NCBI GenBank assembly: GCA_947034895.1
Contig: OX344765.1
Coordinates: 8,189,001 to 8,253,000, forward strand
Length of the DNA: 64,000 bases
Source of the DNA: Rhytidiadelphus loreus
Lineage: Eukaryota; Streptophyta; Bryopsida; Hypnales; Hylocomiaceae
Reading direction: 5' to 3'
In this document: one piece after another, positions 4,413 through 63,188 of the stretch
How positions within the stretch are numbered: the first letter of the stretch is position 1
How the letters are laid out: the number at the start of each line of letters is the position of its first letter
Made by a program: the position numbers and the translations under genes
The notes under the pieces: model-generated
Database searches by the model: none
Seen by the model: the letters and a program-made list of their open reading frames with translations, nothing else
What the model was told of the DNA's origin: nothing

Positions 4413-4420
4413 CTGTAAAA
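4413..4420 (-). promoter_or_regulatory. 3' splice acceptor before the kinase exon
   Basis: On the minus strand TTTTACAG directly precedes the first in-frame codons of the kinase exon, and the frame has no ATG for another eight codons. This supports a spliced 5' part upstream, perhaps the conserved block at 4719-5240. Confidence 0.5.
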
Positions 4421-31469: not shown

Positions 31470-32722
31470 TACTAGTCTAAAAACATGTGGGAGAAAAGAG
31501 TAGGAATTAGAATCCCTATCTCTATGAAAACAATTATTAAAATCTTACATGGTTTAGGTCAAATTGCTACCAAAAGTAGCCTTCTTTGCATGTAGAATAT
31601 CAAACTCTGTTTCATCCAAAGTAGGCACTTGGATCTCTATTACTTCCATTCTTGTTTGATTAAATAAAGTTGGGGCCAAATTGCAGAATTTATTACCAAA
31701 AATGGTTGAATTTTCTGGAAATAATTCTTGTTGATGCTTCCAATTTTCAAGTTTTGAAACATTACCCTGAATCTACTTACCTAGAACATAACAACCTAAG
31801 ATTCGATTTGGATTTGAACTTGCATTGTACAAAAGTATAATATATAAATAATGGTTATAGGATACAAATAATTAATGAATCAAAACTACAAATAATTTAA
31901 ATAATATAACAAAAACATAAATATAATTTAGGAATTTACAACACACCTCCTCTCCATCCAACAACATACATGTATCCTGTCCTTTGAGTCACATTAGTTT
32001 TGACCACATTAACATCTTTTGCCATGTTTACAAGTGTTGTTGTAACTTTCTCATATTCTTTATATTCACTAACAGTCATGTTATCAAAAGGCAAACATCT
32101 TACAATAAGTACGATTTCTTTTGTAGACTTGTCTTGTACAGCCACTAATCCATGATGAATATAAAGATACTTTTCTGGAACACATTGTACAATTTGTTGA
32201 GATTCTCATAACTCCACTCCTTGAAATAAACATAGGCACCTGTGTTTCATACATTTAATTAGAGAATGTCATAAGAAAGAATTTGAAATAATTCTACTTC
32301 TACATAATTAAAAACAAAACAAAAATATAAAATAATTTAATCATATTTAATTCTTTTCTTAAAGACCTGATAAATTAAAAAAAAAATCTCAAGTGAAAAG
32401 TAACATGAAAATAAAAAAATAAAAAAATTTAAAAAAAATAAAAAATAAAAATATATATAATATTAAAAAATAACAATACAATTGAATAATAAAAGTTAAT
32501 ATAAATAGAAGGGCAAAAAAAAGACTTTTACTATATATGCTTAATTTTAGAAGATGTTAAATACTTCAATTGAAATTGAATCATATCAAATTTATGTTGT
32601 TTAAAAAATACCTTTTACTTTTGATTTGACACCATCAACTTCTATAGTTTTTTTCTCCTTCATACAAGCTTTAACATACTCTTTTTGACTCATCTTGTTT
32701 CTAGTAGGATCACTTATTTTCC
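31470..32722 (-). pseudogene. Same broken gene in right palindrome arm
   Basis: Mirror image of the left-arm gene, without the insertion. The exon piece 32722-32600 follows a splice-like TGTGCAG and is better preserved than in the left arm. The 31936-32145 frame is identical in protein to its left-arm counterpart. The HRD triplet is at 31518-31526. The same two stops (around LT*TM*D) occur in both arms, so the gene was dead before, or copied along with, the inversion. Transcription across both arms would give a long double-stranded RNA. Confidence 0.4.
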
Positions 32723-40183: not shown

Positions 40184-41736
40184 ATTTCAAGTGTAAGTTA
40201 TATATAGTAGACTTCTAATATTTTACGTTTTGAGATTGAATGAAAAGTAAAATATTACTAAAAAAATAAAAGTCAGATATTCTAATTTACATTATATTTC
40301 AATTGGTTGTTTTTGAGGTGTTTGTGATCACTACATATCGTAGTTCCACAAATAAATACTAAATCTATTCATTTGTAGGTTACATACATCCCCTATGAAG
40401 GGAAACTTTGGTGCCCAAGCCAGAGAACGTTCATTCAAAGTTTTATTAGTTGATTTTCAACAAATTGTTGGACCTTTGTTGTGCACATCCCGATGTTCTG
40501 TCAATTTCGCTTAACTTACCTCTTTTTTAATAGGTTTGGTTGTATTGGAATTGGCTTAAAACCTACAAGTGACAAAGAACAAGACTTTATATATTAGTTT
40601 AAATTCAAAAATTTGTTTTAGTTTATTGTTTTGTATGTTTTAGACTCTAAAAGGACAATTCTTTTTTAAATATAATATATTACTTACCTTTGATTTGTAT
40701 TGCCTCAAAAAGTATTTTTCGAAACTTCCCTGATTAGTTCAGAGTAGATTCTAAATCCCAATCTTAATCAAACTTACGTTTGTGAAGTATGATCTAATTC
40801 TTGATCATGATCATATACATCCATAATCCATATATAGGAATACTACTGTCAGAAATACCTTTAGACAGATTTTTTTAATACTGTAAATGTTTTGAGTTTG
40901 AACTGCTAAAGATATTTGCTATCCAAGCAACTTCAGTACTAACAGCATTAGTATGTCCTAGCATAATTTTCAGTCCATATCAACAACCTTATTAAAGGAG
41001 ATTGTGTAGAAAAACATACAATGGAAATGATTTACATTCCATACAGCAACACTGTCTACAGGCAAGCTTTGCACAAATATTTCAGCTTGTTAGCTGTGGC
41101 CTCAATAGAAGTCAGCTAGAGTTCTAATGAAGAAATACTGAACTAACCATGAACAAACAATGCACAAACAATGAACACATCAAGTTTCGAGAACTCATAG
41201 TCATTTTTTCCAACCATAACCTTAGATTGAACTTCTAGGTATAATAAGTTGGAGATACAATAAAGTATGAGAACATCATATCCATAGCTCGAAATTTTTT
41301 GAAAAAATCCTCAGGAGGTGGTAATCCTCACCTGTACCCATGCCAACCAGCAAAACGTTAGTATGCCAATAGACGTGCACGAGGTGTCTATAGATTACCA
41401 CTACTTGTTATCGTAATTCACATGAGAAAAATTTCAATCGTAATCCAACCTAAAGCCATAAAATATGCAAAGCAAGCATTTTCTGACTTCTCTACAGACT
41501 TAAAAAACCACCACTTGTTGGTCGCTGTTCTGTGAGCTAAGCACCATTGCATATACTTCTCCCAACTGAATCACCACTGTGAGAACCTCTGACCCTGAGC
41601 AAGTGTTTGTATAACACAAAAAATGTGTTCATTGTGGAAACCGAGCTAGTTATAGCATGAGTTTCAATAATTTCTAAGTTCAAACGTTTGAACATCCCTG
41701 GATGTAACATGAAGAGCGGCAAAAACTTCCAGAGCT
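40085..41736. other. AT-rich DNA within the CACTA element, no gene seen
   Basis: An (AT)n microsatellite lies at about 40150-40181, in the region upstream of the TPR gene start. The rest has no coding signal. Confidence 0.4.
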
Positions 41737-42380
41737 TAAGGTAGGAGGCTCAATTGTTGGAGGGTCATTTTCAGTCGACCATATAGGCTAACCATTAATC
41801 GTGCAGTACGTTCTGGAAAAGATTGAATGATTTAGAATCCAGAAAATGGGATTGCAAGTGTTCAGTTTTTGAACTGTACTGACTTTAGAATACATACTAT
41901 TGTGAGTGTACTTGGATGCTATAGTACTTTATGAATTCAGTGAATAAAAAACTAATGTAAGTAATGAAGTACTTGGACTTATTATTTACAATGGGTTCTG
42001 AATTAAATGAAAGTAGCTTCAGTTTCATTTTGTGGCGGCCATGAAATGAAGTCTAGAAGTGAGTATAAATGAGAAGTCTAGCAGTGAGTTATTTAGGAAT
42101 TTCCCAGCATTGTTTTTGGTGCCATGACCGTCACTTTTGAAAATTGAAATGTACAATTTCACAAAGGAAATACAACTACCATTAATTATATGAGAACCAT
42201 GTCCCAAGACATGGCGGTTGGCTATATGTTCCTCAAGAAGCTGCAAAAACATTTGCAATATGTGACAGTCTACATTACTTCAAAACAGAACTCCAAGTGA
42301 TCCACGAATTCAAGAGAGGCTGTGAGGAATCACGTATTACTATTGCTTGTTAAGTTACTAGAGATTTTGCTTGCACAATC

Positions 42381-45170
42381 ATGAGTGACGACAGTGCTTC
42401 TGATGAAGGCAGCCCTGCTGCTGACGGGATGTGGGAACGTGGACTCAGCTCCGGAAGAAGTTCATCAATCTACAATGAAGATGATGACTACAGTGGAGGT
42501 GAGCAAAACGCAGCACTGTTTGATTGGGCCCATGGAGAAGCAGAGAAGGAGGCGCTGCAGCAGATGGAAGCCATGGGAGTCTTTACTGAGGATGACGACA
42601 CTGTGGCGGATCTGGATATTGAGGTCAGACCACCGAAGCAGAAGAGAATTCGGCAGTTGGAAAATGACAATCCCAAGGTATTGGAGGCGGCACATGTGGA
42701 AGAAGTCTTATGGGGAGAGAGTGACGACAACTCACAGCTATAGTGGCATGGGCGAGCTCAACGAACAAGGCAGAAGAAGAGTCCTGTAGTTTGTAGTGGT
42801 GGCAGCGGACAGGCGAAGTGTTGTAGTCCAACAAGGCTGACGCAAGAACGCAGACATGGAGCAATGGAGATACGACGAACACGTATGGAGGGTCCAAGTA
42901 GCAACTCCAAGCACCTCCATAGACCTTCAGAGAGGCCTGCCGCTGCAGGTATGACTTCAGATGACAGTCCGGACTTGCCTCCTCTTACATTTCCAAAAGG
43001 TACTAGATCAAAAACAAGAGTGAAAATGAATGGCAATTGGACTGGTCAGCAACTTCAGCATGCCATAGCTGACATTGATGATGGCCAAACAATTAGAAGT
43101 GCTGCCAAGGATTACGGAATTCCATCTTCTAGTTTGAGAGGCCATGTCTATGGGACTACAATACAGAGAAGAAGGGGCAAAAGAGGTGTTCTAACAAATG
43201 AAGAAGAGCAGGAATTAGTGGACTACCTCCTTCAGATGCAGAACCTTGGATTTCCACTGACAATGGGACAACTGCGGGAAAAGGTGGGAATACTGACCCA
43301 AGCTAGGGTGACCCCATTCACAGACGGAGTTCCAGGACCTGGTTGGGTGAAATGTTTCAGGAGAAGACATCCAGAATTAAGTTTGAGAAAACCACAAGCC
43401 TTAGACCAAAAATGAGCGAGAAGTTTATGTCCAGAAACTGTTCAAACTTTCTATGACAATTTGCAGAAACTATACAATGCTCACAACTACCCAGCCCATC
43501 ACATTTGGAATTGTGATGAGAGTGGTGCACAGGCAGGGAAAGATGGAGGGGGATACGTTCTAGCAAAAAGGGGAAGCAGAAATGTACACATGGTAACACC
43601 AGACCAAAGGGAATGGCTTTCTGTTCTATCCTGTATCAATGCAAGAGGTGACAGATTGCCTAATTTCTACATATTCAAAGGCAAACGTCAAACTAGAAAC
43701 TTCTTGAAAAAAACAGGTGAAACAGATGCAATTCTAGCAATGCAGCCAAAGGCCTGGATGACACACTACCTTTTCGAAGCCTGGATGTTGCATTTTCTAT
43801 CCACTGTGGAAGAGCTGCATGGAATATCACCATCCAACATACACTTGCTGATTTTCGATGGTCACAGCTCTCAAGTGACCTTGGATGTTATAAAACTAGC
43901 GATGTCCAGAGGTTTGGATTTGCTAACATTGCCTTCTCACACATCACATGCCCTGCAGCCACTTGATGTGATGTGCTTCAAGCCTTTCAAGCTGGCATTT
44001 CGTGCCTATAGGGACAAGTGGACTTTAAACCACAAAGGCATGCTGCCACAGAAGGAGGACCTTGCTCAATGGGTTTCTCATGCCTTGAAAAGAGCCTTGA
44101 CCACTAATAACATTACCAAAGGATTTCAAACAACAGGTATCTATCCTATAGATTCCACAGCCATGGATGAGAGAATGGGGCCTAGCTGTGCTTATCAACG
44201 ACCAGATGCTGCAACAGACAGTGCAACTGCAAATGGGCCAGAAGAACAAACATATGCACTTGAAGAATGGGAGATACAAGAGATTAATGAAGAAGTGGAT
44301 CTTGATTTACCAAACTGTCAATAGTACTACGTAGAAGTTGACAATGATAGTGACGACAGTCATTCACAGGACAACGACGCTGAGGATTCAAGTGCAACAG
44401 ACGACGAAATAGGAAATGAAGACTGTCCGGGAGTGAAAGAAGGTTTCAGAGATATGTTGGCTCTTCCAAGTGTACACTTGCCATCCATGTCAAGGAAACG
44501 CGTGCAACCACGTATAGACTACCAGAAGTCCATTCTGTTAACTGAAGAGGAACATGTGCTGCAGCTGGAGGATGTTGCAGCCAGACGAGAGGAAGCTGCC
44601 AAGGAAAAAGAAAGGAAACAATTAGAGAAGGCAGCCATGAAGGAGCACAGAGCAGAGGAAAAAAGACAGAAGTTGGAAGCCAAGAACACAAGAGCTGCAC
44701 TTGCATTATCCAAGAGAAAACATAGAGAGCAGTGGAGCTTGAAAAACGTCCGAGCTTTAGGAGACAAACTGCACGCAACAATCAAAGCAAATGCCCCCAT
44801 TACTGGATACAAGGCTCCTTACTGTGGGGTGATTCCAGAGGTCTGCAGAAGAAACCAGAAGGTGGCAATAGCTAGGAGGCGAGCAAAGAAGCTAGGGCAG
44901 GACATCAGCCACTTACCTCCCCTACAGGAAGTACATCCCCTGCCTGTTTCTTCTCCTTTCATGCAGCAGACGTTGAACAGAACAGCTTTCATTCCTTACA
45001 ACCAGAACATGTATGCCCAGCCTTCTCTCTTGTACCAAGTACCACCGTATTGGAGAACTGCATCAGCACCTGCAAGAGAAACACCAACATCAGATGATTA
45101 TTGCGGCATGCAAAACAAGGACAGCCACCGTACACTTGCACAGGAGCAGCAATGCAGGCGACCAACTTGA
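42381..45170 (+). pseudogene. pogo-like transposase, one frame with three stops
   Basis: A single frame runs 930 codons from ATG 42381 to the stop at 45168-45170, broken only by TAG 42741-42743, TGA 43413-43415 and TAG 44322-44324. Order of domains: acidic N-terminus; a Psq-type helix-turn-helix at about 43024-43150 (NWTGQQLQHAI, RSAAKDYGIPSSSLRGH); a CENP-B-type second DNA-binding domain to about 43400; a DDE_1 catalytic core with Asp at 43515-43517 (NCDESG), 43857-43859 (IFDGHSS) and 43965-43967 (LQPLDV), the last two 36 residues apart (DD35D pattern); then a Lys/Glu-rich coiled coil. The protein would cut and paste the element at TA sites in the nucleus. All three stops can be explained by one C-to-T change each from CAG or CGA. 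The first could instead lie in an intron. Confidence 0.85.
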
Positions 45171-47253: not shown

Positions 47254-48346
47254 GAGCCTCCTACCTTACAAAGGGTAGGAATTATTATTTTTTGATCAGC
47301 TCTTAATATGGAGATTAATGGACCAAGCCTCCAAAGCTCCATGAGCTGTCAAGCTTAACATCAAGTATTTAAGCATTCTTTTAGAAACCTGCTAGTTTGG
47401 GTTATTCAGTCAATGGATACCCGAAAGCTCTCATTAACTGTCAAAAACTTTATTGATACCGAAATCAGATTTTGAAATCAGAGTATGTGATGCCTCCATG
47501 TGTTGTAACAGGAGGAGGGAGTTATATTGGTTATTTGGTAAATGTTTCAATTTCTGAAAATGCTATTTATTTTGTATGTAAATTTTTTTCTAAATCATAC
47601 CATAAATAACAGCTCAATAAATAGAAAAAAATATATAAGATTATATACTATGATGTATAATATCTATTTATTTCTATGAATCATACAGCAATAGACTTTT
47701 TAATTATGATAACTAGGAATAGTTCCTGGAAATCAAGTCTAAAAAAGAATGTCTTGTTCTGGCACATCCCCTGTCTAGGGCATCATTCTAAACTTTCTCA
47801 TGCTTGTAGTTTTCTAAATCAAGTATACAAGATAGTCATGGCAAGCTTCTTATCAGCAAACGTCACACATTTTTGTTGTATTGTTTTCTTTTTTTGCTAT
47901 CCATTTTTTTCCTTAAAGCTCAAGGTCTTACCAAGGCTGGTGTCTAGGCTAGAGAGCTTATGATATGAATCATCAATTTTTAAGCAAAACCAAAGCTATA
48001 GATCGTATATCATCATATCCACGTTTTCCACAAGCTTTACTATTTTCCAGAGATGTCTGTGTAAGGATTTTTTATGAGAAATCTGGTCCTACATTGCATC
48101 TCTTCCCAGAAAAATTCAACAGTATTTTGTCAAATAATGCAAGACAGCCATTATAGACTACTAGCAACAAGTTAAAACATCTAAAATCACTCTGTTTGTC
48201 CAAAAACAGGACTTGCTGCAGCAATAGAGTCTGTGATTTGCCATATGAATATCCAAATAGCTCCATGAAGTTGTGGCCCTCACCTGTGCCCGTCCCAAGA
48301 ACAACACAAACCAATGTTATGTTAGAGGGGTACACCAGGAGTCTTA

Positions 48347-48349
48347 AGA
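48347..48349 (+). repeat. Target-site duplication AGA (left)
   Basis: Duplicated at 52115-52117; present once at the empty site in the sister repeat near 57741. Confidence 0.9.
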
Positions 48350-48558
48350 CACTAGTAGAAAATTCAACGTCCAACTTCACAAAAAAGTGTTGATTTGAAC
48401 AAAATAGTTTGTGTTGATTTGGACGTGCTGATTTGGACAAAAATCAACAAGTCTTTGTTGATTAGGACAAAATTATAACTAAAACTTGTTGATTTCGACA
48501 AAAAAATTCCAACTAAAACTTGTTGATTTGAACATAATTTTCAACACAAATTTGTTGA

Positions 48559-48696
48559 TTTTTTTTTAATTTTTTAATTTTTTTTTTAAAAATGCCACGC
48601 GGGCAACGCCTAGGTGGCACCCCACGCGGGCGGGGTGCAATGGGGTTTGAACCTAGCACCCCTTGGCTAGGGGTACAAGGTCTTATCCATTGCACC
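48559..48696 (-). mobile_element. tRNA-derived SINE-like sequence
   Basis: On the minus strand the head GGTGCAATGGATAAGACC pairs with TTGCACC 50 nt later like an acceptor stem (48690-48696 with 48634-48640). CCTTG/CAAGG forms an anticodon-like arm, and GGTTCAAACCC matches the polymerase III B box (GGTTCRANNCC). A GC-rich body of about 40 nt follows, and then an A-rich tail ending near 48559. The tRNA-like part is only 63 nt, so it is not a functional tRNA. No clear target duplication. Confidence 0.55.
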
Positions 48697-48769
48697 ATGT
48701 GAAAAATTACATGACTATAGGTGGAAAAAAAAGTTATTTATTTCGGTTTTCAAATTTTGGTCATTTTTG

Positions 48770-49545
48770 GTTCAAATCAGCAGACTTTGGAGGCTTATTT
48801 CTCATAGTATAGTACCTATTTTCAAAAAACTTCAAACTAGTAAAAGTTGGAAGATCAAGTAAACTTTCATCTCCAAAAATCCGTTTGTGATTTTGAGCTT
48901 TCAATAAAAAGTTATGGGCAAAATTCAGAGAGGGTTTGGAATGAAATTTCTTTTTGATATTTACAAACACTCTCTCTGAATTTTGCCCATAACTTTTTAT
49001 TGAAAGCTCAAAATCACAAACGGATTTTTGGAGATGAAAGTTTACTTGATCTTCCAACTTTTACTAAGGTAGGAGGCTCAAAAATGGTGCACCTAAGGGC
49101 TGGTCTGCCTTTTTTGTGTATTTCTTTGGACGGGAATATTTTTAGCTCATTTTTCAGACAAAGAGAAATTGATGAGGAATCTAACCCAAGTGGTTTCATA
49201 TTTTTCCAGAGATTTTTGAATTACTTATGAATTTTCAAACGAGTTGGGTCATAGGTCCCTATTTGTGACCCTAGATCTTTCATGAATGATTCACTTGCAA
49301 TTCTAAATAAAAATGGAGAAAACACAGAGAATGATTGGCTCTTCCAATTAATAATGTTTTCTTCCTTGGTTCATTCAATGAATGTACTGGTCAATTTCAG
49401 AACTTTAGATGCACCATTTCACAACCATTTATAGGAGCCATTCTTAATGCCCGCACTGTTTCACAGCCTCCTACCTTAGTTTGAAGTTTTAAAAAAAAAA
49501 AGACTGTGCTATGCAAAAACAGCCTCCAAAGTCTGCTGAATTGAA
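48770..49545. repeat. Long hairpin element, right arm split by a pogo miniature
   Basis: The left arm from TTCAAATCAGCAGACTTTGG (48770) is mirrored in the right arm ending near 49545; the hairpin centre is near 48945-48960. Inner arms (48840-48930 and 48975-49063) are almost perfectly complementary. After removal of 49067-49476 the outer arm is also continuous. A related older copy lies at 37380-37660. Confidence 0.8.
49067..49476. mobile_element. 410-bp pogo-family miniature element
   Basis: Termini AGGTAGGAGGCT and its complement are those of the 5.5-kb pogo element at 41739-47266. TA is duplicated at 49065-49066 and 49477-49478. The opposite hairpin arm (48833-48845, AACTAGTAAAAG) shows the uninterrupted TA site. 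The interior lacks transposase sequence. Confidence 0.9.
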
Positions 49546-50269
49546 AAAAGACTGAATTGTGAATTAAGTTGTTAATAGAAAATATTCCTATTGCTTATAC
49601 AATGTCAAACTTGGTGGTTTAAAAATTTTCCACATGAAATTTTAGTGTTAAAAACTTCAATTCAATTAAATATATTTTAAATATTTGACAAACATTTTAC
49701 TAGGAGGTGGTTTGGACACAATTCATATTCAAGTTTTTTGTAATGTAGAACATACAATTTGAATAGCTCTAAATTAGAATTTGGGAATTGCTCATCTAGA
49801 ATTTAAATATTTAAAAAATTTTGTGTTCAAGAATTGTGTCGAAAGTTTAGAATTAAATTTTGTTTTTTTAAAAACACGCTTGATTTTCATTTTTTTTTAA
49901 ATTATTAAGTAGAAGCAAGTTCAAGATTGAAAGAAAAACTAAAGCGTTAATAGCTCTAAAATGGAATTAAAATACAATAATGTCAACGGTGAGATTGTTC
50001 TAAATAGGAAACTTAAAGTTGTTAAACATTATTTTTTGAAAAATTGTGAGAATTGCATCCAAAATTGCATCCAATAAGTTATTTTTTCAAGAAGATGCTC
50101 AAATTGCCCGAAAAACAAAATTGTTTTTAACTTTCACAGTACTAATCAAATGGAATGAATAAAAGCTTCACATGTAGACAAAAATATGATTTTCAAGAAG
50201 GAAAAAATTAAAAAATTAATTTCAAATTTTTGTAGATTTCTTTTTCTGCCTAATGACGTGAAATTTATG
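49546..50269. other. AT-rich interior of the nested CACTA element
   Basis: No gene, no clear repeat relationship found. Confidence 0.4.
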
Positions 50270-50455
50270 GTTAAGATGCCATAACTTTTGCTCCCAAGCA
50301 CCAATTGAAATAAAATTTATATTACCACAAAGCTAATAAGTTTTTCTATCTTATGAGGAAGTTTCAAAAAGTTTAACTAAAAATTTAGATCATACAAACT
50401 TGCCCGAAATCCATTTTGTCCACCGAGGGGACAATGGTCCTTTAGGGGTCAAAAA
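50270..50455 (+). repeat. Dispersed repeat, copy B
   Basis: Homologous to 19500-19690 over about 180 bp, ending GGACAATGGTCCTTTAGGGG. Confidence 0.7.
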
Positions 50456-51600
50456 AATTTAAATTTAAATTTAAACCTCTAAAGAACAAAGTAGAATTTT
50501 TTGACAATATTTCTAGTGTTTTTGTTCATGTATTTAGAAATTGAATTCCCTTTTTTACCCTTTAAAATTTTTACACAACATGTGGTGAAGGGATAGTTTG
50601 AAGGACTCACAATTTTTATAACTTTTGATTACATCATGAGAAAGTTATTGTATGATGTATAGATTTTCTAGATATGTATGCATGTTAGCCAAGTAGATTT
50701 GAATATATTTTTCAAATAAATAGGAATTTCAAATTGGTTTTCTAAAATATTAATCTTGTGAGAATTTTTGGATTGTTCTATATAGATTAGGGAGGTGAAA
50801 CTCATGAAGAATTTCAATTTCCAATTTAAAGTAGAATTTCTACTTTACAGTTAATTTTAAATTTCTTTATTGAATGCAATTTCAAATATATATTTTTTTA
50901 ATTTCAAAAATAGGATGCAAATTGTTGACTACAACATGTACATTAGTACATTACAACCATTAGGTTTGAAAATCTTTAGTTTCATTACTATAATTCTTTT
51001 CATTGAATGTCGTACATCAATCTTTATTTTTATCCACTTATTATTTTCTCCAAGCATGAACATAAAGTATTTTTTGTTGCAATTTTTAATATAGATTCTC
51101 TAACATATTTTTTTAGCATATGATGGAAAATTGTAAATTGTAGAATAGATATATACCTTAATTTTTTGGATAAAATTTTGGAAAAATAAAATTTAATCAT
51201 TTGGGATGAATGAAACACTATTTTTTTAAAATCCAAGCATCATGATGTTGCAATTGGTGAAGTTTTTTATTTTACAATTTCAAGAGGGAAAAATAGGTCA
51301 AAATAAGTTCAAGTTAGATCATCTAGTTAAATCTATTGAAAAAAAACAAACATAAATGAAGATTTCAGCCTTGCTTTGAAGACTAATATTTAGAAGCAAT
51401 TATGGGCCTTTCATATGTTGAAAACCTTGATACAATCAAAGTTGAATTACATTATGAATTTAATTAGAACTTCAATCAACTTCAAAATATAATTGAAAAT
51501 GAAATACAATTTGAACTTTAAATGCATAATTTTTGAAAAATTCTTAAAGATTTCAAAAACATTCCAAAAACAATACAAAAACATTCTAAAAAGAATACAA
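50456..51600. other. AT-rich interior with weak repeat relationship
   Basis: Blocks near 50870-51240 (ACATTACAACCATTAGG and what follows) recall 11760-11910 and 22070-22200, so it is probably a diverged member of the same old repeat family. No gene. Confidence 0.4.
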
Positions 51601-51605
51601 AAACA

Positions 51606-51936
51606 ACCTTAAAAAACCCAAATCCTCCCCCCCTCCAAACCTCTACAAATCAACCTCAAAACAACCCCCAAAAAATCCAAAACCCCCAAAACCCAAACAA
51701 CCTCCAAACAACCCCCCAAACAACCCCCAAAACAACCCCAAAACAACCCTAAAACAACCCCCAAAACAACCCTAAAACAACCCTAAAACAACCCCCAAAC
51801 AACTCCCCAAACAACCCCCCAAACAACCCCCAAACAACCCCCAAAACAACCCCAAAACAACCCTAAAACAACCCTAAAACAACCCCAAAACAACCCCCAA
51901 AACAACCCCAAAACAACCCCAAAACAACCCTAAAAC
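51606..51936 (+). repeat. C-rich array (CAACCCCNAAAA)n
   Basis: About 25 imperfect units of 10-12 bp alternating C3-6 and A3-4. The minus strand reads GGGGTTGTTTT repeatedly and should form G-quadruplexes readily; the plus strand could form i-motifs. It shows strong strand asymmetry, with almost no G on the plus strand. Confidence 0.85.
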
Positions 51937-52114
51937 ATTGAACAAAAACATGTTGATTTAGTTGTTGTACTATTCACATGAACAAAAATTTGTTAAATCA
52001 TTTTGTTAACTTGTGCTCAAATCAACAAAAAAATGTAAAAACGGTCAATGCAGTACTCAAATCAACAAGTTTTTGATGATTTTCTATTAATTTGGACATA
52101 ATTTTCTACTAGTG

Positions 52115-52117
52115 AGA
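52115..52117 (+). repeat. Target-site duplication AGA (right)
   Basis: Right partner of 48347-48349. Confidence 0.9.
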
Positions 52118-53047
52118 CCACAACACATGCTATAGTTGTCACATGGTGCAAAGAATGGAAAATATAAACAACAAATCATAAAAGCAGCATTACTAGCACT
52201 AGTCCAATAAAACCTGGTTGCAGCTTGTTCGTTGTGTAGAAGCCATGTTTGCCTCCTGTTGCCGTAAGTGCTCTCAGAACGAGCTTGGGACCCAATCACC
52301 GAACTCAGCTCTGTTATTATCAAAGCTCCAGCACTCCCGCAGTCATGCCACACTTTAACAGCTACTTAGCTAAGAATACAAGCTTTGGCTTTTTGTCCCG
52401 ATATCTCTCAACAGCCTGAATGCTTTAGTCATGATGGACTCACAGGCCGGTGAAGCTTTTACAGCTGGTCCTTCTTTCAGGCTACAATTACTCCCTGTAA
52501 TTTTTCTGTGATTGTGGTGTATAGGGCCCATAGCTGTCTTTTTTAGAAAAGCCGTCATTTGGGTTTCAATTTAATTTTTGCAGTCACAGAGGCAATGCTC
52601 TTATTCGTTACTGCACTTGTGCTCAGTTCATCCTCCTTTGTTTTGTACAAACGATTATGGAATGATGGGATCATTATTGAATCCTGAGAGAAAATCTTCA
52701 AGTATTCAGACCGAATTAAATGAATAAATAGCCAGCTTGCTCTGCACAGAAGGATCAGCTAGACCTTCAGAACTTCAGAGATTGCATGTACAACTGTCTA
52801 TCCATCTAGTTTGTTAACTAGTTTGTATATCCAGTCAAATTGTGAAGGCAACGGAAATGGCTACATGCTTTTATATAAATAAATATATATGTGTATACAA
52901 ATATATTTGATCGTCAAAAAATCATTAGCCTAATCAAAGACCTGTCACTGTATAATCAGAGAATCATACGTGAATCATCTACAGTCATTGAACTAGTACT
53001 TGGTTATGGATTCTGGAAAAAAAAAAAAAAAAAAGCCCGCCTCCTCC

Positions 53048-53111
53048 CCTGGAAGTGCAAAAGCCTCAATAAGAGTACCTGACGTACCCTCTTATTGAGG
53101 TGCACACCAGG
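53048..53111 (-). other. Structured hairpin at the 3' end of the retroelement unit
   Basis: Nested complementary segments: CCTGG 53048-53052 with CCAGG 53107-53111; GTGCA 53055-53059 with TGCAC 53101-53105; CCTCAATAAGAG 53064-53075 with CTCTTATTGAGG 53089-53100; and an inner TAC/GTA pair. This gives 25 paired positions with small bulges. On the coding (minus) strand it lies about 80 nt after the RT stop and just before the second direct repeat, where a template-recognition structure would be expected. Confidence 0.6.
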
Positions 53112-53190
53112 CCTCTGAAATCCTCTGTAGGTATTTTTTAGTACCTAAATACAGAGTTTCTTTTTCTCCAAAGGTTCTTGAACTTTGCTT

Positions 53191-53484
53191 CTAATTACAA
53201 TGTAATGCTTCGATAAGGTCATCGATGTTAAACTTGAGTCCTAGGAACGGATTTGAGCTCAGGAATTGTCTAATAGTACGTATTAAACGATCCTCATAGA
53301 ACCCATTGTTCTTGAGGGTCTGGATCAGCAAAAAAAATTCTCTGGTCGCTGCTTCCACGGAGCTTGAAATGTATAAGATAGGGACCGTCTGTGATACCGC
53401 AATATTGTATGATTGCTTGATAGGCCTGTTGGACCGGAATTTAATACTGTGTGTAAGCAAAAGGTAGATCTCTCCTCTTGTCAT
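53191..53484 (-). pseudogene. C-terminal part of the reverse transcriptase, shifted frame
   Basis: About 83 residues beginning IKFRSNRPIKQSYNIAVSQ continue the RT ORF after its premature end at 53441 (DLPFAYTQY). The join needs a frame change at about 53443-53446, best explained by a small deletion or insertion. The segment ends at a stop at 53191 just before the structured hairpin. Confidence 0.65.
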
Positions 53485-55363
53485 ATTTTTGTGTCATGTA
53501 TTCCAAGGATTCGTCATCCAAAATTTCAATCTGCATGTTCATGAAGTTTGCAAAAATCCCTCGTGAAGAGTCTGTGCATGAGTATTTAGATACTTCTGAT
53601 TTTATTTGCAAGACATCGAGAGGATAAATCCAGTAGGGATTTTCCTTTGTTCGCAATTGTAGCGGGGATAGAAATTCAAGCGGACTGTATGCGTTTATCC
53701 AACACAGATCGTCAATATACCGAAAGGCGGATTTAAACTTGACCATCAAATCAGTGCGGCCTAGTCGGGCAAGTCTTTGGATAAATGAAATCTCATAGTG
53801 TAGTAAATACAAGTTACACCACAGGGGTGAGCAAGAAAATCCCATGGGGATATCGAGTTGCTGTTTCCATACACGGTTGCCTAATGTAACATAGCAATTT
53901 TTCATAAGCCATATATGGATCGAGACAAGTTGTTTTTCATTCAAGGAGAACCATTGCCCATAAGTGGGAGCACTAGTATCCCATACGGCTCTTGCTGCTT
54001 GTCCGTTACTGTCTACCCTAATCCATATTAAAGGGACAGCACGTTGGTGCATCGATTTGGCTTGTTGAAAACCAATCTTAACAATGTGGGAGATAGCGTC
54101 TGCTAAATTATCTGCACCCTCGAGGGGTATGGTTTCATAGCAGCGTGTAACATCTGCTACAAACACATCATATACTTTGTCAGGCAGATTCAGGGCTACT
54201 TCAATTGAGGAATTGACCATCCAGAAGATGGAGGTTTGACAGCGTAAGAACTTTGCATATCCTTTAACTGTAAGTTGAGCCCATTGCTTAACCCGTTCAA
54301 GGAGCTGCATGGTAGCAATAGTTAGTAACTGTGCAACATTAGAGTACACTATTCGGAATGCGTTAGTCAACCACCGATACTTGTTTTTGTGTAGTTTATA
54401 GGTCGACATAAGGTAAGGCAATGCTACAAACGGAATACTGAGCTCTGGCACTAGGTCTAGGATTTCCTGCGACACCTGCTCAAGAATGTGCGATGGTAAT
54501 GTCCATGCTGCATCATTTTTACATGGTCGAAACTCAGGGCCTGAGAGTCGTTCCAAAGCCAGCAGTCTGATGTGTCGGATGCAAATAAAGCTAGCATTAT
54601 TTGCCGCCTTATCCAGGCTAGTGCAGTACAGATGGGTTGTAACCCATTGAATCTCATTCTTCACGTTGTTCTGCTGTAGCAAATCGGGTCCTGAAAACCT
54701 AAGACCTGAGCGGTTAGTCTTGGAGGCCGCCTTTAATTGTTCCAAACAGGTCCTGCGAACCCATTCAGTAGCTTCTTCGATCGGAAGTCCTGAATTTTCC
54801 AGGTTGAGGATCCCTGACAATTGGATAAACGCATCTAATGCTGTGGCAATCGCAACAGCAATACTAGTAGGTTTTAAAGGTATGTGGTTGAGACCCATAC
54901 CGATTGCTTCCTTGAGTTTTGGGTGTTGAATGACCCCCACATCAATCGTTCGGACATGCAGTTGAGCTTTCGCAAAGCTGGACGTCTCCTCCAAAGTTCG
55001 AACGTCGAGAAATCTGGAAAACCTGCGTACTTGTAAACATGCACACGAAGCTTGCGGGTCCAACAGTTGTTCGACAGAAAATTTCTTAAATACCTCGGCT
55101 GGCTTGTAGAGTACCGAAGCCAGATTATCGTAGTACCTCCATGCAAATCGGATATCCGCCACGAGAGGGATAACATGCTCAAGATTAAATTGATTCAGAC
55201 AAGCACTGAAAATATGACGTAAATTAATCCAATCCAAAGCACGGCAAGGATAGGTCAGTATAATATACCCGCTAGGTTTTTTGTCCACACATTTTTGTAT
55301 GATATTCCGACCCAATTGGTCTGTGTCCATGTATCTACGTGGCTCTGTAAGATCAATCACCAA
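53441..55363 (-). CDS. Divergent reverse transcriptase
   Basis: A frame of 640 codons. Residues 315-350 hold PYLMSTYKLHKNKYRWLTN, which fits an RT motif 1-2 region. Motif A is FVADVTRCYETIPL with Asp404, close in style to telomerase and Penelope-type enzymes (DVTG.YDTIP). Motif B is IPMGFSCSPLWCNLYL (505-520). Motif C is FRYIDD with the catalytic pair Asp551-Asp552. The long N-terminal part (1-300) is not recognised. No RNase H, integrase or GIY-YIG endonuclease is visible. The frame has no ATG until codon 12 (55328-55330). It ends prematurely at 53441: the homologous continuation lies in another frame (53484-53191), so this copy has a frameshift. It could also be a cellular RT-related (rvt) gene, but the flanking direct repeats favour a retroelement. 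Confidence 0.75.
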   Translation of the reverse strand: MVIDLTEPRRYMDTDQLGRNIIQKCVDKKPSGYIILTYPCRALDWINLRHIFSACLNQFNLEHVIPLVADIRFAWRYYDNLASVLYKPAEVFKKFSVEQLLDPQASCACLQVRRFSRFLDVRTLEETSSFAKAQLHVRTIDVGVIQHPKLKEAIGMGLNHIPLKPTSIAVAIATALDAFIQLSGILNLENSGLPIEEATEWVRRTCLEQLKAASKTNRSGLRFSGPDLLQQNNVKNEIQWVTTHLYCTSLDKAANNASFICIRHIRLLALERLSGPEFRPCKNDAAWTLPSHILEQVSQEILDLVPELSIPFVALPYLMSTYKLHKNKYRWLTNAFRIVYSNVAQLLTIATMQLLERVKQWAQLTVKGYAKFLRCQTSIFWMVNSSIEVALNLPDKVYDVFVADVTRCYETIPLEGADNLADAISHIVKIGFQQAKSMHQRAVPLIWIRVDSNGQAARAVWDTSAPTYGQWFSLNEKQLVSIHIWLMKNCYVTLGNRVWKQQLDIPMGFSCSPLWCNLYLLHYEISFIQRLARLGRTDLMVKFKSAFRYIDDLCWINAYSPLEFLSPLQLRTKENPYWIYPLDVLQIKSEVSKYSCTDSSRGIFANFMNMQIEILDDESLEYMTQKYDKRRDLPFAYTQY

Positions 55364-55389
55364 AAAAAGCTATCATTAGCTGCAAAACA

Positions 55390-56037
55390 TTACTCATCCT
55401 CAAAACTCAGCATATGACCACGAACTGGTGATTCTGTCACTTCCTGGATGATCGGCGAAGAGGTACTAGGCTCTGTTCTGGCAGTTGCTGCGGAGCCCAA
55501 GTCGATGCCGTTAGAGTTCCGAAACACTTGGAATTTGTCATTCCACGGTATTGTGTTGAAGTATTGGAAGGCTGAATTATGCACCGGGGGACTGTATCGA
55601 CGTTGCATGTTGTTGTTGCCACGTCCAGTCCCGTAACCTCTTCCTCGAGGTTGTGATCCCCGACCCCTGCTATATCCGCCGCCAGTAGCTTGGCGATTGG
55701 GATTCGGTAGGGTGTTCAAGTTAATTTTCTGCCGTTTGGACGGTGGAGCATTGCTTGGTGTCCTTGGATTTGCGATCGAGAATGCTTCGGGTTTCAACAT
55801 CCGTTCAATCTGTCTTGGCCTTGGCATGTCGGGCAGCTCGGATAGTATTTTGCTAGAAGGATTTGTGGCGAATTGGATGGCACCAGTGCACATCCAGGTC
55901 CGTGCCTGCGTGAAAGCCAACTGACATCTAACTGTAGTTCGTCCGGCCCCTTGCATCCAGATTAGGAATGCGATAAATTTGGCCTTAAGTGTAGGAAAGG
56001 TATCATTTGGAAAGAATTTTTCCAGATGATTGATCAT
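55390..56037 (-). CDS. RGG/RG-rich ORF2, candidate nucleocapsid
   Basis: A frame of 215 codons starting at ATG 56037, two codons after the TAG of ORF1 and in the same frame. Residues about 115-145 form a glycine-arginine tract (GGGYSRGRGSQPRGRGYG), a type that binds RNA. A basic PPSKRQKIN segment just before it could be a nuclear localisation signal. In the absence of a CCHC knuckle this tract may replace the nucleocapsid function. The stop (TAA) lies about 25 bp before the reverse transcriptase frame, next to a run of seven T, so a frameshift could link the two. Confidence 0.6.
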   Translation of the reverse strand: MINHLEKFFPNDTFPTLKAKFIAFLIWMQGAGRTTVRCQLAFTQARTWMCTGAIQFATNPSSKILSELPDMPRPRQIERMLKPEAFSIANPRTPSNAPPSKRQKINLNTLPNPNRQATGGGYSRGRGSQPRGRGYGTGRGNNNMQRRYSPPVHNSAFQYFNTIPWNDKFQVFRNSNGIDLGSAATARTEPSTSSPIIQEVTESPVRGHMLSFEDE

Positions 56038-56040
56038 ATA

Positions 56041-57039
56041 CTAGCAGGAGTGGTCCCACCATATGAAAGACCCACTGCATCCATTACTAGATTTTGGATG
56101 GCAAGAGCAGCGTAGGTATGGTCGATGCACGTTCCACATTTCTTGTGGGTGCTTCTCTCGACGATCATTAGCGGTGGGTACTTCTAATTTGATGTGTAAC
56201 TTCACAGTAGTAATTGGACACTTACTGTGATCATACCCATAGAGTGCGAAAGCATTCACTAGGTTTTGGCCATTAGAAATTAGCTTTCTGCCATGTAAAG
56301 CTGCATCTTTACACTCTTCAAGGTCTGTTTTACTGAGACCTCCCCAAATACGCCAAGTAGACGTCAAGATGGGTGCTAATGAATTGACGTTGCATGTGGC
56401 CCAGACTCTATGGTCTTTGGCCGGCATCTGGTCCTCAATGGTTCTAGACGGCACAAAAGGTACTGCTAAATGACATCCTGATGCAACAAGTGTTTCCTGT
56501 TCTTTCTCAATCTGTGTTGACACGATTGATTCTTGCAAATCCTCTAATACGGCCTTGTGAGCATCATCTATCACAAGGTTTGTTAAAAACGGATGATTGA
56601 ACGTACCCGACTCTGGGATCGCCAGTTGCGATAATGAACCACAATCCTCGGCTTGGTTGTTAGCGTGCCTGATAGCCACTTCTACAACTGTGGTGTTTTT
56701 CTTGGCTTCAGTTAGTTCGAACTCATCGTTCATCAGGATCTGCTGCATTGACGCTTGCAGTTTGTGAAGTCTTGCCAAGGCCTTCTGAACATCGGTGTTT
56801 GCTACCTCGAAGATCCGTGTCCATTGTGACAGGTCGAGTACCGTGAGTAAGAGGATTGGCTCACCCTCTTCTCCTGTCGAGTTGATTGCCGCAAGATCGG
56901 TATCTTGGATGAATTTGTGAACCTCAGACGGGTTTATTGCAGCTAGAGTCGCTTGAACTCTCGGTATTAGGGGCGGTAGAGGTTCTCGGTATCCCAACGC
57001 ATTCAAGTCTTGGTGCCATACTGGTCCCGATTTGGAGGC
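56041..57039 (-). CDS. Gag-like ORF1 of the retroelement
   Basis: Open from a splice-acceptor-like GCTGCTCAG at 57040-57048 to TAG at 56041-56043, about 332 codons. No ATG lies near the start; the first possible residues are ASKSGPVWHQDLNALGY. A 5' exon in the upstream direct repeat is therefore plausible. The protein is largely helical and acidic in the first half, with a conserved-looking LLTVLDLSQWTRIFE stretch. There is no zinc knuckle and no known domain that I can name. It lies directly before the RGG ORF in the same frame, separated by one stop codon, so the two may form one 550-residue protein by readthrough or in an undamaged copy. A structural, RNA-packaging role is inferred from position only. 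Confidence 0.55.
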   Translation of the reverse strand, partial: ASKSGPVWHQDLNALGYREPLPPLIPRVQATLAAINPSEVHKFIQDTDLAAINSTGEEGEPILLLTVLDLSQWTRIFEVANTDVQKALARLHKLQASMQQILMNDEFELTEAKKNTTVVEVAIRHANNQAEDCGSLSQLAIPESGTFNHPFLTNLVIDDAHKAVLEDLQESIVSTQIEKEQETLVASGCHLAVPFVPSRTIEDQMPAKDHRVWATCNVNSLAPILTSTWRIWGGLSKTDLEECKDAALHGRKLISNGQNLVNAFALYGYDHSKCPITTVKLHIKLEVPTANDRREKHPQEMWNVHRPYLRCSCHPKSSNGCSGSFIWWDHSC

Positions 57040-57136
57040 CTGAGCAGCATAGCATCTAGGTTAGAATCAACAACATATACATGAAAATGAAAAGAATCAT
57101 GCTGGAATTTCACCAACTCCAGATGGGTAGAATGTA

Positions 57137-58649
57137 AAAGAATGTCTTGTTCTGGCACATCCCCTGTCTAGGGCATCATTCTAAACTTTCTCATGCTTGT
57201 AGTTTTCTAAATCAAGTATACAAGATAGTCATGGCAAGCTTCTTATCAACAAACGTCACACATTTTTGTTGTATTGTTTTCTTTTTTTGCTATCCATTTT
57301 TTTCCTTAAAGCTCAAGGTCTTACCAAGGCTGGTGTCTAGGCTAGAGAGCTTATGATATGAATCATCAATTTTTAAGCAAAACCAAAGCTATAGATCGTA
57401 TATCATCATATCCACGTTTTCCACAAGCTTTACTATTTTCCAGAGATGTCTGTGTAAGGATTTTTTATGAGAAATCTGGTCCTACATTGCATCTCTTCCC
57501 AGAAAAATTCAACAGTATTTTGTCAAATAATGCAAGACAGCCATTATAGACTACTAGCAACAAGTTAAAACATCTAAAATCACTCTGTTTGTCCAAAAAC
57601 AGGACTTGCTGCAGCAATAGAGTTTGTGATTTGCCATATGAATATCCAAATAGCTCCATAAAGTTGTGGCCCTCACCTGTGCCCGTCCCAAGAACAACAC
57701 AAACCAATGTTATATTAGAGGGGTACACCAGGTGTCTTAAGACCACAACACATGCTATAGTTGTCACATGGTGCAAAGAATGGAAAATATAAACAACAAA
57801 TCATAAAAGCAGCATTACTAGCACTAGTCCAATAAAACCTGGTTGCAGCTTGTTCGTTGTGTAGAAGCCATGTTTGCCTCCTGTTGCCGTAAGTGCTCTC
57901 AGAACGAGCTTGGGACCCAATCACCGAACTCAGCTCTGTTATTATCAAAGCTCCAGCACTCCCGCAGTCATGCCACACTTTAGCAGCTACTTAGCTAAGA
58001 ATACAAGCTTTGGCTTTTTGTCCCGATATCTCTCAACAGCCTGAATGCTTTAGTCATGATGGACTCACAGGCCGGTGAAGCTTTTACAGCTGGTCCTTCT
58101 TTCAGGCTACAATTACTCCCTGTAATTTTTCTGTGATTGTGGTGTATAGGGCCCATAGCTGTCTTTTTTAGAAAAGCCGTCATTTGGGTTTCAATTTAAT
58201 TTTTGCAGTCACAGAGGCAATGCTCTTATTCGTTACTGCACTTGTGCTCAGTTCATCCTCCTTTGTTTTGTACAAACGATTATGGAATGATGGGATCATT
58301 ATTGAATCCTGAGAGAAAATCTTCAAGTATTCAGACCGAATTAAATGAATAAATAGCCAGCTTGCTCTGCACAGAAGGATCAGCTAGACCTTCAGAACTT
58401 CAGAGATTGCATGTACAACTGTCTATCCATCTAGTTTGTTAACTAGTTTGTATATCCAGTCAAATTGTGAAGGCAACGGAAATGGCTACATGCTTTTATA
58501 TAAATAAATATATATGTGTATACAAATATATTTGATCGTCAAAAAATCATTAGCCTAATCAAAGACCTGTCACTGTATAATCAGAGAATCATACGTGAAT
58601 CATCTACAGTCATTGAACTAGTACTTGGTTATGGATTCTGGAAAAAAAA

Positions 58650-58663
<14 letters not shown>
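57137..58663 (-). repeat. LTR-like direct repeat, uninterrupted copy (5' on minus strand)
   Basis: Runs from AAAAGAATGTCTTGTTCTGG to GGATTCTGG plus an A tract, here followed by (TA)n to about 58695. Across the position of the CACTA insertion in the other copy it reads without interruption (CTTAAGACCACAACAC at 57737-57752). Several short minus-strand frames (57465-57776, 57715-57978, 57995-58183) are kept in both copies, but this reflects recent duplication rather than proven coding. Confidence 0.8.
58493..58502 (-). promoter_or_regulatory. Candidate TATA box in the direct repeat
   Basis: TATATAAAAG on the minus strand, about 165 bp inside the repeat from its 5' end; the same box is at 52868-52877 in the other copy. 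It is correctly placed to start a transcript reading into the ORFs. Based on motif only. Confidence 0.3.
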
Positions 58664-58697
<34 letters not shown>

Positions 58698-60039
58698 CTA
58701 GTATAAAAGCAAATACTAAAATGCATACTATGTTAGAGGGACATTGCTATATGATTCAACGTATGAAAAAATGTTATGTCTTACAACCTTTAAAACAAGG
58801 ACAAGCATGCAATCCTTCTGTATAAATCAAATGTAAGATCACCTCCTACTCTTACTTCCATATCTCTAATCTTTGTTAAAAGTTTAAAAGGCCAATCCAA
58901 AAAATATATTTTTAATATATTTTTGAGCTAAATCATGAAAGTAAAGCTTTCTAAATTTAATATATGTTAAACTTGAAAACCTCAAATTTTTATAGTAATG
59001 ATTATTTTATAATCTCATTGCACTCTAAAATTGAAAGAATCTAATGAACTTCAATCCTAGAAATAGATTGACATAGAATTTTGATGCACTATACTATAAT
59101 AAATGCCTATTTTCAAATTTTCAAATTTATTATTGAAATTTATATACAATATAATTTATTGTATCTTCCCTCTTTCTTCAAAAATCAAAGACAATTGAAA
59201 TCTTTTCAAAATATCTAAATTATAGGAGATATGTGATTTTTATCTTTGTAAAATGAAAAAAATATATTTATAATGCCAAAATAGAGAACAGTAAGAGAAA
59301 GGTTTTGAAGTTTGACTATTTCATGGTCATAGATTTTATTCTTACAAGAATACTTCAATAACAAGTTCTTTTTGAGATACAAAATGTCTAAGGAGACATG
59401 AAAATTTCTAGTTGGTTGTAAGAAAATCTATAAAAAACAAACATAATATTAAACACAAATGTTGCACTTTTGTCATTGATACACTAGAACAAATAAGGTG
59501 TTGAAACAACATGTTTTTGTGTTTGAAATTAGTGCCAAAGTCCCACATAAGTACCAAGGTAATGTTTATATCACCATACAAGACTTCATTAGCGTGCTCT
59601 AACATTGTAACTCAGTGCTTCAAAATTTCCTTTCTACTGATCCACTAGTACAATTAGTGCCAACTACTTTCCAGAATATCCATCCAATCATCCCAAACAG
59701 GATGGACCTCTTACTATATATATAAACATCAAAATCTTTTTTTATTCTTTGTGTACCATTTTAGAGCCATACTTGAATAAATTTTTTCTTTTTTCTTTGT
59801 AGAGATGAAATTGCACATTTTCTATAAGTCATTTTTGTGAATTGTAAATTTAGAAAATAAAATTGTGTTTGAAAATTGACAAATTTGGATTTGGATGATA
59901 ATATGATTGTTGTATTCCAAAATTGATGGCTAGGGGTTGGTGAATTTTTTTGTTTTGTTGACGGAGGTGTGATACGCATCCTATAATGCATTAGTAGGTC
60001 CTACTAATTATCCAATTTTAACATCCATCCATCACTCAC
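58664..60039. other. AT-rich DNA of the candidate 25-kb CACTA element
   Basis: Begins with a (TA)n tract to about 58695. A CACTAGAACAAATAAGG motif at about 59481 resembles a CACTA end, but no partner was found. No gene. Confidence 0.4.
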
Positions 60040-60640
60040 TCTCTCACCACAGTCATATTCCACATAATTGCAAAATATGACTCACCGTAGTCATATTCCA
60101 CATGATTGCAAAATATGACTCACCGTAGTCATATTCCTCATGACTGCAAAATATGACTCATTGCAATCATATTCCACGTCATCAAAAAATATAACTCACT
60201 GTAGTCATATTTCACATGATTGAAAAAATATGACTCACCACAGTCATATTCCACGTCATTAAAAAATATGACTCAAAGTAGTCATATTCCACAAAATATG
60301 ACTGACCATAGTCATATTCCACGTCATCAAAAAATATGACTGAACGCAATCATATTCCACGTAGGATTTTTTCATTTATCCGGGTAGCTCAAGAAAAAAT
60401 CAAAGAAAGTCAAAGAAAGTCAAAATATATGCCTTGTTGGCATACTATGGCTAATTATGGGTATTTATACCCCTCAACTTATATGACTGCCAATATGATT
60501 GATGTCTGAAGCGACTGCTTCTAAACGATTGCACTCAGTCATATTCCGAGTCATCTACAGTGATTTCTGCATGAGTCATATTTTTTGATTTTACAACTCA
60601 CTGCAGTCGTTTTTTGCAGTCATAAAACACTGCTTTTGTT
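60040..60640 (+). repeat. CACTA subterminal tandem repeats, right end
   Basis: Eight to nine units of about 39 bp (GTCATATTCCACATGATTGC followed by AAAATATGACTCAC) at 60047-60362, then looser inverted TATGACTG-type motifs up to the terminal repeat at 60611-60646. They share the core word with 35600-35712, linking both ends to one family. Confidence 0.8.
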
Positions 60641-62573: not shown

Positions 62574-63188
62574 TTATTCATCCATAGCAATGTCTTGGAG
62601 GCTATGTGCAGTTAAAATAAAATCATCATCAAAGTGGCTACTCTCTCTCTGTACAATATCCAAATCTTCATCAGTTGTTTCCTCCATTGATGCATAAGAC
62701 AATATTGATTCCCTTTTGTACAATGCATCATCTTTGGCCTGAGATGAATCTCTTTCTTTGCCATAGTGCAATCTTGTAACATGCCTTCCATCGTTGAACT
62801 CTCCACCATCCAAATAGTCAAATACATTGAATGTCTTTGGTCTTTGTTGCAAGACAAAATACCAACCATCTTTGTAATTGTTTGCCACAAAAAATACCTT
62901 CTCCACATCTTTTGGAAAGATGAAAGGTTGATCACTAGGAGAATTCATACCCAAATTCATGTTGTATGTTTGTGATGTGTCTATTGCATGAAACAAGCAT
63001 TTGTCAAAACGCACATTATTTTTGTACCATTCAATTAAGAATAAAACCACCTTGTTCTTCTTGCCTTTGCCTAATGTCGTATATTCCACCTCCACAATGT
63101 CAACCAATAATCCTATATAGTCAACTTTTGTATCCTCCTCTTCAAAACGTCCTGCAATTCTTGAGTCACATTGTTTTAACTTCTTATC
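62574..63188 (-). pseudogene. CACTA-associated DUF4216 fragment
   Basis: A frame of about 204 codons ending at 62574, open back to 63188. The core reads VDYIGLLVDIVEVEY, KVVLFLIEWYKN, PFIFPKDVEKVFFVANNYKDG and W.FVLQQRPK. This is the arrangement of DUF4216, the domain found C-terminal to the TNP2-type transposase of plant CACTA elements. An acidic tail follows. The start is not an ATG, and no upstream transposase core was found between 63188 and the window end, so it is a fragment, or the last exon of an element extending beyond 64000. It lies outside the 35586-60646 element. Confidence 0.6.

Follow-up and report, generated by a model that had tools for sequence, protein, structure and literature searches.

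The window analyzed here (the whole 64,000-nt stretch of Rhytidiadelphus loreus DNA, contig OX344765.1, positions 8,189,001 to 8,253,000) carries on its minus strand a retroelement in which two direct repeats of 1524 bp each, with 6 mismatches between them, flank a 4.1-kb core. It belongs to a multicopy retroelement family of autonomous type, the architecture of which exceeds chance. Our preferred reading, held with moderate confidence, is that of a Penelope/telomerase-type family that lacks a recognizable endonuclease (EN) and gains entry to chromosomes at simple repeats of the kind found at its own ends. The repeats, the simple-repeat tract that opens them, the G-rich box ahead of it, the reverse transcriptase (RT) fold, the copy number, the link between RT clade and tract type, and the association with host tracts are established.

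Element Architecture

The features of the element and its immediate surroundings, from the 5' end in coding orientation, are as follows.

58642 to 58667, minus strand: T26 tract opening the 5' repeat, with (AT)n before the tract (sequence)
57136 to 58659, minus strand: 5' long direct repeat (coding orientation), 1524 bp
58493 to 58502, minus strand: candidate TATA box TATATAAAAG within the 5' repeat (motif only)
57102 to 57122, minus strand: hairpin with a GGTGA loop at the core start (pairing across copies)
55390 to 57039, minus strand: Gag-RGG gene, interrupted by a stop in the window copy (one protein in relatives)
55345 to 56864, minus strand: predicted intron, 1520 nt, joining Gag codon ~45 to the RT (splice motifs and relative P0006)
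53191 to 55344, minus strand: RT gene, telomerase-like predicted fold, with an open frame as far as 53441 and the C-terminal part frame-shifted
53064 to 53111, minus strand: structured RNA, two crossing helices that may be a pseudoknot or alternative hairpins (folding and comparison)
53036 to 53052, minus strand: G-rich box CCAGGGGAGGAGGCGGG immediately ahead of the 3' repeat (pattern in 26/27 copies)
53017 to 53034, minus strand: T18 tract opening the 3' repeat (sequence)
52115 to 53034, minus strand: 3' long direct repeat, first part, insert-side boundary 52115/8 (repeat comparison)
48350 to 52114, no strand assigned: CACTA-ended insertion splitting the 3' repeat, with AGA duplication, foreign to the element (sequence)
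47743 to 48349, minus strand: 3' long direct repeat, second part (repeat comparison)
47265 to 47749, minus strand: repeat start of another family member (L019 type), whose T tract the element adjoins; continues at 40707 to 41738

The initial annotation had described the near-identical 1.5-kb repeats and the T tract that opens them on the coding strand, and both are borne out; the insertion in the left (3') repeat had gone unmentioned. This insert is 3765 bp long, begins with CACTAG, ends with CTAGTG, and has a 3-bp AGA duplication, in keeping with plant CACTA transposons. It carries a 98-bp inverted repeat (48838 to 49066, 99% complementary) and an array of the GGTTGTTTT type. The stretch that splits the L019-type repeat contains Tc5/pogo-like transposase fragments (HTH_Tnp_Tc5, DDE_1; 42744 to 44324). 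Known domains were considered for the open reading frames (ORFs) of the repeats, and none held up. Stretches of (AT)n lie between the T tract and the flank in the window (58668 to 58700), at a repeat at C1:63579495 that has no RT match nearby, and in L012 and L020; they may be host sequence or an addition made at insertion.

A Multicopy Family with Recurring Repeats

A protein search returned 76 relatives of the RT and a profile search 154, of which the best 120 were listed. Among the relatives listed, one is named, a protein of the moss Ceratodon purpureus, 55% identical to relative P0003 over 56% of it; searches of viral contig and genome contig collections gave no confirmed relatives. The genome was searched as a 407-Mb assembly, most of it in five contigs of 50.7 to 94.4 Mb, and yielded at least 70 RT matches, including fragments and a small duplicated contig (C447). 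The repeats recur as well and belong to the element, and the RT is not a single-copy gene.

We studied 26 further copies (L009 through L034), taken mainly from the highest-ranked matches and not at random. In 18 copies a simple pair of flanking repeats of about 1.2 to 1.6 kb is present, the two being 99.47 to 100% identical; in this comparison L016 and L029 yielded pieces, L022 and L023 form a tandem pair, and L032 through L034 were left out. L018 has lost its 3' end, including the G-rich box, and is followed by other sequence. The window copy is of the T type, with L009 as its nearest copy (88%). Head-to-tail copies occur in the genome, as do near-full repeats (97%) with no RT match nearby (C1:63579495 and C4:33207916), the ends of which touch T- or AT-rich tracts.

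A Reverse Transcriptase with a Telomerase-Like Predicted Fold

The RT motifs named in the initial annotation, motif A (FVADVTRCYETIPL), motif B (MGFSCSPLW), and motif C (YIDD), are all present in the window RT. In an alignment of 132 relatives and the window sequence, the motif A aspartate is conserved in 129 of the 132 rows with a letter there, and the first aspartate of motif C in 117 of 118. The RT model (predicted local distance difference test [pLDDT] of 90) has telomerase as its best match, from the RNA-binding domain through the thumb, and telomerase occupies ranks 1 through 16 among the best 50 PDB rows of the fold search, which supports the telomerase/Penelope style proposed earlier. 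Judged by fold alone, with no Penelope-like element (PLE) as yardstick, the modeled RT appears to be related to telomerase. A PDB sequence/profile search with the RT gave no match to TERT; compared with viral models, the best 50 rows resemble RNA-virus proteins.

Pfam assigns the window RT to RVT_1 below the cut-off (15.2 bits vs. 29.6), along with one weaker and implausible family. Across 43 scanned family members, RVT_1 matches 40 at E values up to 1 (best 1.2e-5), and every other Pfam family is limited to at most 3. PF26215 is precomputed for relatives P0108 and P0155 and was not recovered by our Pfam scan. In agreement with the initial annotation, Pfam recognized no integrase or RNase H in the window or in family members; GIY-YIG gave no Pfam match, and a regular expression found it in 0 of 132 relatives, which leaves room for a diverged nuclease.

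RT relatives extend beyond the stop of the window RT, the remainder of which is encoded in another frame near the C terminus. Since the RT has this frame shift and the Gag-RGG gene is cut by a stop, the window copy is probably inactive.

One Gag-RGG Protein and a Probably Spliced RT mRNA

A Gag-like ORF (56041 to 57006) and a Gly-Arg-rich ORF (55390 to 56037) do precede the RT, as first annotated, but not as two genes: both align end to end with relatives of ~550 aa that span them, so they form one Gag-like protein with an RG-rich tail, its sections parted by a stop codon in the window copy. A Gag start codon was sought and not identified, and the predicted Gag fold (pLDDT of 61) gave no convincing structural match. 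Four pairs of Gag and RT matches lie on equally long contigs (5341, 5556, 5241, and 18696), which suggests that the two genes stay together.

The window RT has no obvious start codon. Gag codon ~45 is followed by a donor (GAGG/GTGAGC, the slash marking the splice site) and the RT preceded by an acceptor (CTTACAG/AG), and removal of the sequence between them would join the frames. Relative P0006, which may derive from RNA or from DNA, is fused exactly in this way (Gag match E 7e-15): GEEE stands at its junction, and the distance to DQLGR is unchanged. All 26 copies with a Gag match (L033 has none) retain the donor GGT. An in-phase acceptor is found in 24/26, a count weaker than it appears because the copies are related and a fair number of them would have a fitting phase by chance. 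The mRNA for the RT is thus probably spliced, with translation running from the first ~45 Gag codons into the RT, and the sequence supports production of Gag-RGG from an mRNA retaining the intron; a further leader intron (57677 to 57039) is only a guess.

Terminal Tracts Follow the RT Clades

The core ends with CCA[ACG]GGG[AT]GG[AT]GG[CAT]GGG in 26 of the 27 copies (window included; the exception is L018), and in those 26 the 3' repeat opens with a simple-repeat tract directly after this G-rich box. The tract is T-rich in 12 copies, CCCTAAA in 7, and TTC in 7; where the ends were inspected, the repeats close with about one unit of their own tract kind. In RT trees containing this family only, each tract type occupies one side of a branch (support 86/88 for the T-rich type and 100/100 for the others). 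The distribution takes 2 changes, the minimum, vs. a mean of 11.8 for shuffled labels, a comparison in which near-copies cluster anyway. L010 and L011 have near-identical RTs and 3' tract units of TTTTTTA and TTTTTTC, respectively; the tract turns over faster than the gene.

The RNA bordering the tract also stands out. Ahead of the 3' repeat, a 153-nt segment has a predicted folding energy of −54 kcal/mol (z −4.4), and two crossing helices can be drawn in 14 copies spanning all three tract types, with 84.6% of cells paired overall. The helix formed by CCUGGUGU with ACACCAGG has 99.1% of cells paired and two pairs changed on both sides; the second crossing stem, longer and less well aligned, has 75.5% paired. 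Slid versions of the helices pair at most 50.6%. Shuffles reached the observed values in 6/500 cases for the paired fraction, 3/500 for cells changed on both sides, and 2/500 for the covariation score; weighing against the structure, the number of double-change pairs was reached by 149/500 shuffles and that of pair types by 448/500, so that support is partial. The comparison supports a structured RNA ahead of the G-rich box, in which a pseudoknot is not proven.

At the other end of the core, the GGTGA hairpin pairs at 7 or 8 of 8 positions in 20/27 copies and covaries, and its 13 unique versions are 99% paired vs. 59.5% when shuffled; both figures are biased by the picking of sites for their pairing. 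Its pair-type number was reached by 8/2000 shuffles. In the remaining 7/27 copies (L010, L011, L013, L016, L026, L033, and L034), pairing stays below 7 of 8 or the site is absent.

Many Insertion Sites Resemble the Element's Own Tract

Each flank was scored for its likeness to a perfect tract, with 1500 random 40-mers from the window as the reference and a pass level of 0.05. At least one flank passes in 8/10 T-rich, 4/7 TTC, and 5/6 telomeric copies, 17/23 in all, where ~10% is expected; among the 26 typed copies, L016, L019, and L033 were unlocated, and insertions or tandem copies led to a misplaced 3' end for the window copy, L023, and L029. Several sites illustrate the association. The window copy lies at the T tract of the L019-type repeat (92 to 96% identical), which has no nearby RT match of its own. 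A degenerate telomere-like tract surrounds L025, and two units of this kind precede L024; the flanks beyond are alike, which places both in one kind of host repeat. L011, L013, and L014 share a host repeat with T/G microsatellites, and the 5' tract of L011 is like the target and unlike the element's own 3' tract. Two adjacent TTTAGGG units were not found in the window. L009, L017, and a solo repeat (C3:7631143) are inserted at the center of an apparent palindromic dispersed repeat with an A/T core.

Several observations weigh against tract-directed entry. The 3' flank alone passes in 10/23 copies, and neither flank does in 6/23; four of these six adjoin another copy, L009 and L017 meeting at a T tract, with the 3' end of L017 at the junction, and L027 and L030 running, by eye, into a TTC-type repeat start, which leaves L021 and L028. 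The genome is AT-rich and the tracts frequently lie within dispersed host repeats, so insertion into such repeats could mimic a choice of tract. No reliable target duplication was found, and the window's best candidate (12/14; 0.006 to 0.012, uncorrected) owes its downstream part to the L019-type repeat. A pair of equal end repeats suits complementary DNA (cDNA) made as in long terminal repeat (LTR) elements at least as well as target priming, and the case is built from sequence and models.

The initial annotation had left open how the element integrates without a nuclease, and had pointed to EN-lacking elements that use chromosome ends. This precedent fits in part: one subfamily does carry telomeric CCCTAAA tracts, but the copies themselves are seldom terminal, with 2/39 of the near-full copies listed lying within 1 Mb of a contig end and 7/39 in the outer 5% at either contig end. 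A candidate answer is entry into simple-repeat tracts that match the terminal tract of the element.

A Candidate Route of Entry and Its Alternatives

In the route that we propose, Gag-RGG would coat the RNA, and the RT would recognize the structured RNA near the 3' repeat through its domain resembling the RNA-binding domain of telomerase. The terminal unit of the RNA (e.g., ...CCCTAAA, ...TTCTT, or ...TTTTTTT) would then anneal to a free 3' end of a host tract that matches it, priming cDNA synthesis, and the far end of the cDNA would be joined to the other side through its own tract. The two identical repeats would arise by LTR-type strand transfer or template jumping. Because priming would occur where the terminal unit finds its match, the host tract would replace an endonuclease as the address.

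It is possible, as a tentative extension, that the family forms a separate retroelement lineage in which a simple-repeat address replaces the endonuclease, the terminal unit of the RNA serves as a telomerase-like template on any matching tract, and the 5' tract is taken from the target. The last step would allow the address to drift (T6C, T6A, and T6G) or to switch among T, TTC, and CCCTAAA.

A cycle like that of LTR retrotransposons would first make double-stranded cDNA with two identical repeats in a Gag particle; broken simple repeats would then receive this cDNA through end-joining or annealing by the host, or through the integrase of another element. Such a cycle strikes us as rather unlikely, yet it draws on the same architecture: long, near-identical repeats in 18 copies, a TATA motif within the repeat, a Gag-like protein with an RG-rich tail accompanying the RT, and repeats that occur without a nearby RT match. 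Other features weigh against it. The G-rich box was considered as a polypurine tract, and is not a clean one, being broken by a C and in many other copies by T; RNase H and integrase were not recognized, the repeats do not end in TG...CA, the RT is telomerase-like, and no primer-binding site was recognized by eye in a comparison that left out tRNAs.

We consider improbable a partial tandem of the Penelope type (pseudo-LTR [pLTR]), in which a truncated copy contributes its end as the upstream repeat and the template is possibly an antisense polyadenylated RNA, with an A tract on the plus strand. The literature describes the pLTRs of Penelope as resulting from a truncated second copy in tandem (PMC8969392), and an antisense template has been proposed (PMC3846280); head-to-tail copies do occur here. 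Random truncation does not predict an upstream repeat that starts at the tract in copy after copy, and the TTC and CCCTAAA tracts are not poly(A). Finally, a single-copy host RT gene between unrelated segmental duplications has nothing in its favor and is contradicted by the 70 genomic matches and the recurring repeats, and we give it practically no weight.

How EN-less retroelements enter chromosomes is an open question. With many copies in one genome, near-identical repeats, and three clades that each have a tract of their own, the family turns it into a rule that can be tested, namely that the insertion site is predicted by the element's end. Its telomeric clade, which combines CCCTAAA tracts and structured RNA with an enzyme resembling telomerase, has direct bearing on how telomerase and mobile elements are related. 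Were the family a separate lineage as outlined above, this subfamily would show, in a present-day case, how telomerase could arise from a mobile RT of its own type that is equipped with a structured RNA and a telomeric template, or the reverse.

Other Features of the Window

Away from the element, the window holds a protein kinase ORF of 689 aa (2351 to 4420), a near-perfect palindrome with arms of about 830 bp and 98% identity (30553 to 32211), an array of 38-bp tandem repeats (60043 to 60377), and an ORF with a match slightly below the cut-off to DUF4216, a domain seen in CACTA elements (62574 to 63188).

Comparison with Known Systems

Among the titles listed by literature searches, none was on such a plant family; several key PLE papers lay outside our reach, so an earlier description is possible. 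LTR retrotransposons and retroviruses with a spliced Pol, of which spumaviruses are an example, share with the family long near-identical repeats, a Gag-like protein, solo repeats, and a probably spliced enzyme mRNA; they differ in RT type, in the protease, RNase H, and integrase that were not recognized here, and in their TG...CA ends. Insertion into tandem repeats is a likeness to SART/TRAS and Waldo, telomere- and microsatellite-targeting long interspersed nuclear elements that encode an endonuclease and are not known to have terminal repeats.

TERT resembles the RT in predicted fold over the RNA-binding, RT, and thumb regions, and the repeat of one subfamily has the plant telomere unit; unlike TERT, the family is mobile, with terminal repeats and 70 matches, and its RT has no PDB profile match to TERT. 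Many PLEs, though not all, carry a hammerhead ribozyme in their terminal repeats; for the window copy, Rfam gave nothing at the gathering score in the window and no hammerhead up to E 10 in 52000 to 58800.

Canonical Penelope elements (RT and GIY-YIG, with pLTRs) are similar in their direct terminal repeats, in targets of AT-rich simple sequence (PMC3846280), and in their introns, which lie within the pLTRs (PMC11722881). They differ in that here GIY-YIG is not recognized, a Gag-RGG gene is present, a tract starts the repeat, and the repeats measure 1.2 to 1.6 kb vs. about 0.2 kb for pLTRs (PMC3846280).

A further close parallel is with EN-deficient PLEs, described as having a telomerase-related RT, no EN, and two ORFs in 4 to 6 kb (PMC6431247), and found in some plants, namely Selaginella, Pinus, and Picea (PMC9033089). 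These elements (Athena/Terminons and those of Selaginella, Pinus, Picea, fungi, and protists) share with our family a telomerase-type RT, a second ORF, and the lack of a recognized EN. Terminons bear reverse-complement telomeric repeats at their 3' end (PMC6431247), and the CCCTAAA subfamily likewise carries telomeric repeats. EN-deficient PLEs are proposed to use chromosome ends or breaks that lie exposed for priming, and those of fungi and protists are without pLTR organization (PMC3846280), whereas the family here has long direct repeats at both ends (18 copies), T and TTC addresses in addition to the telomeric one, and copies that are dispersed rather than terminal. Set against the published descriptions, it thus resembles EN-deficient PLEs in the missing EN and the telomeric clade, and adds long terminal repeats and nontelomeric addresses.

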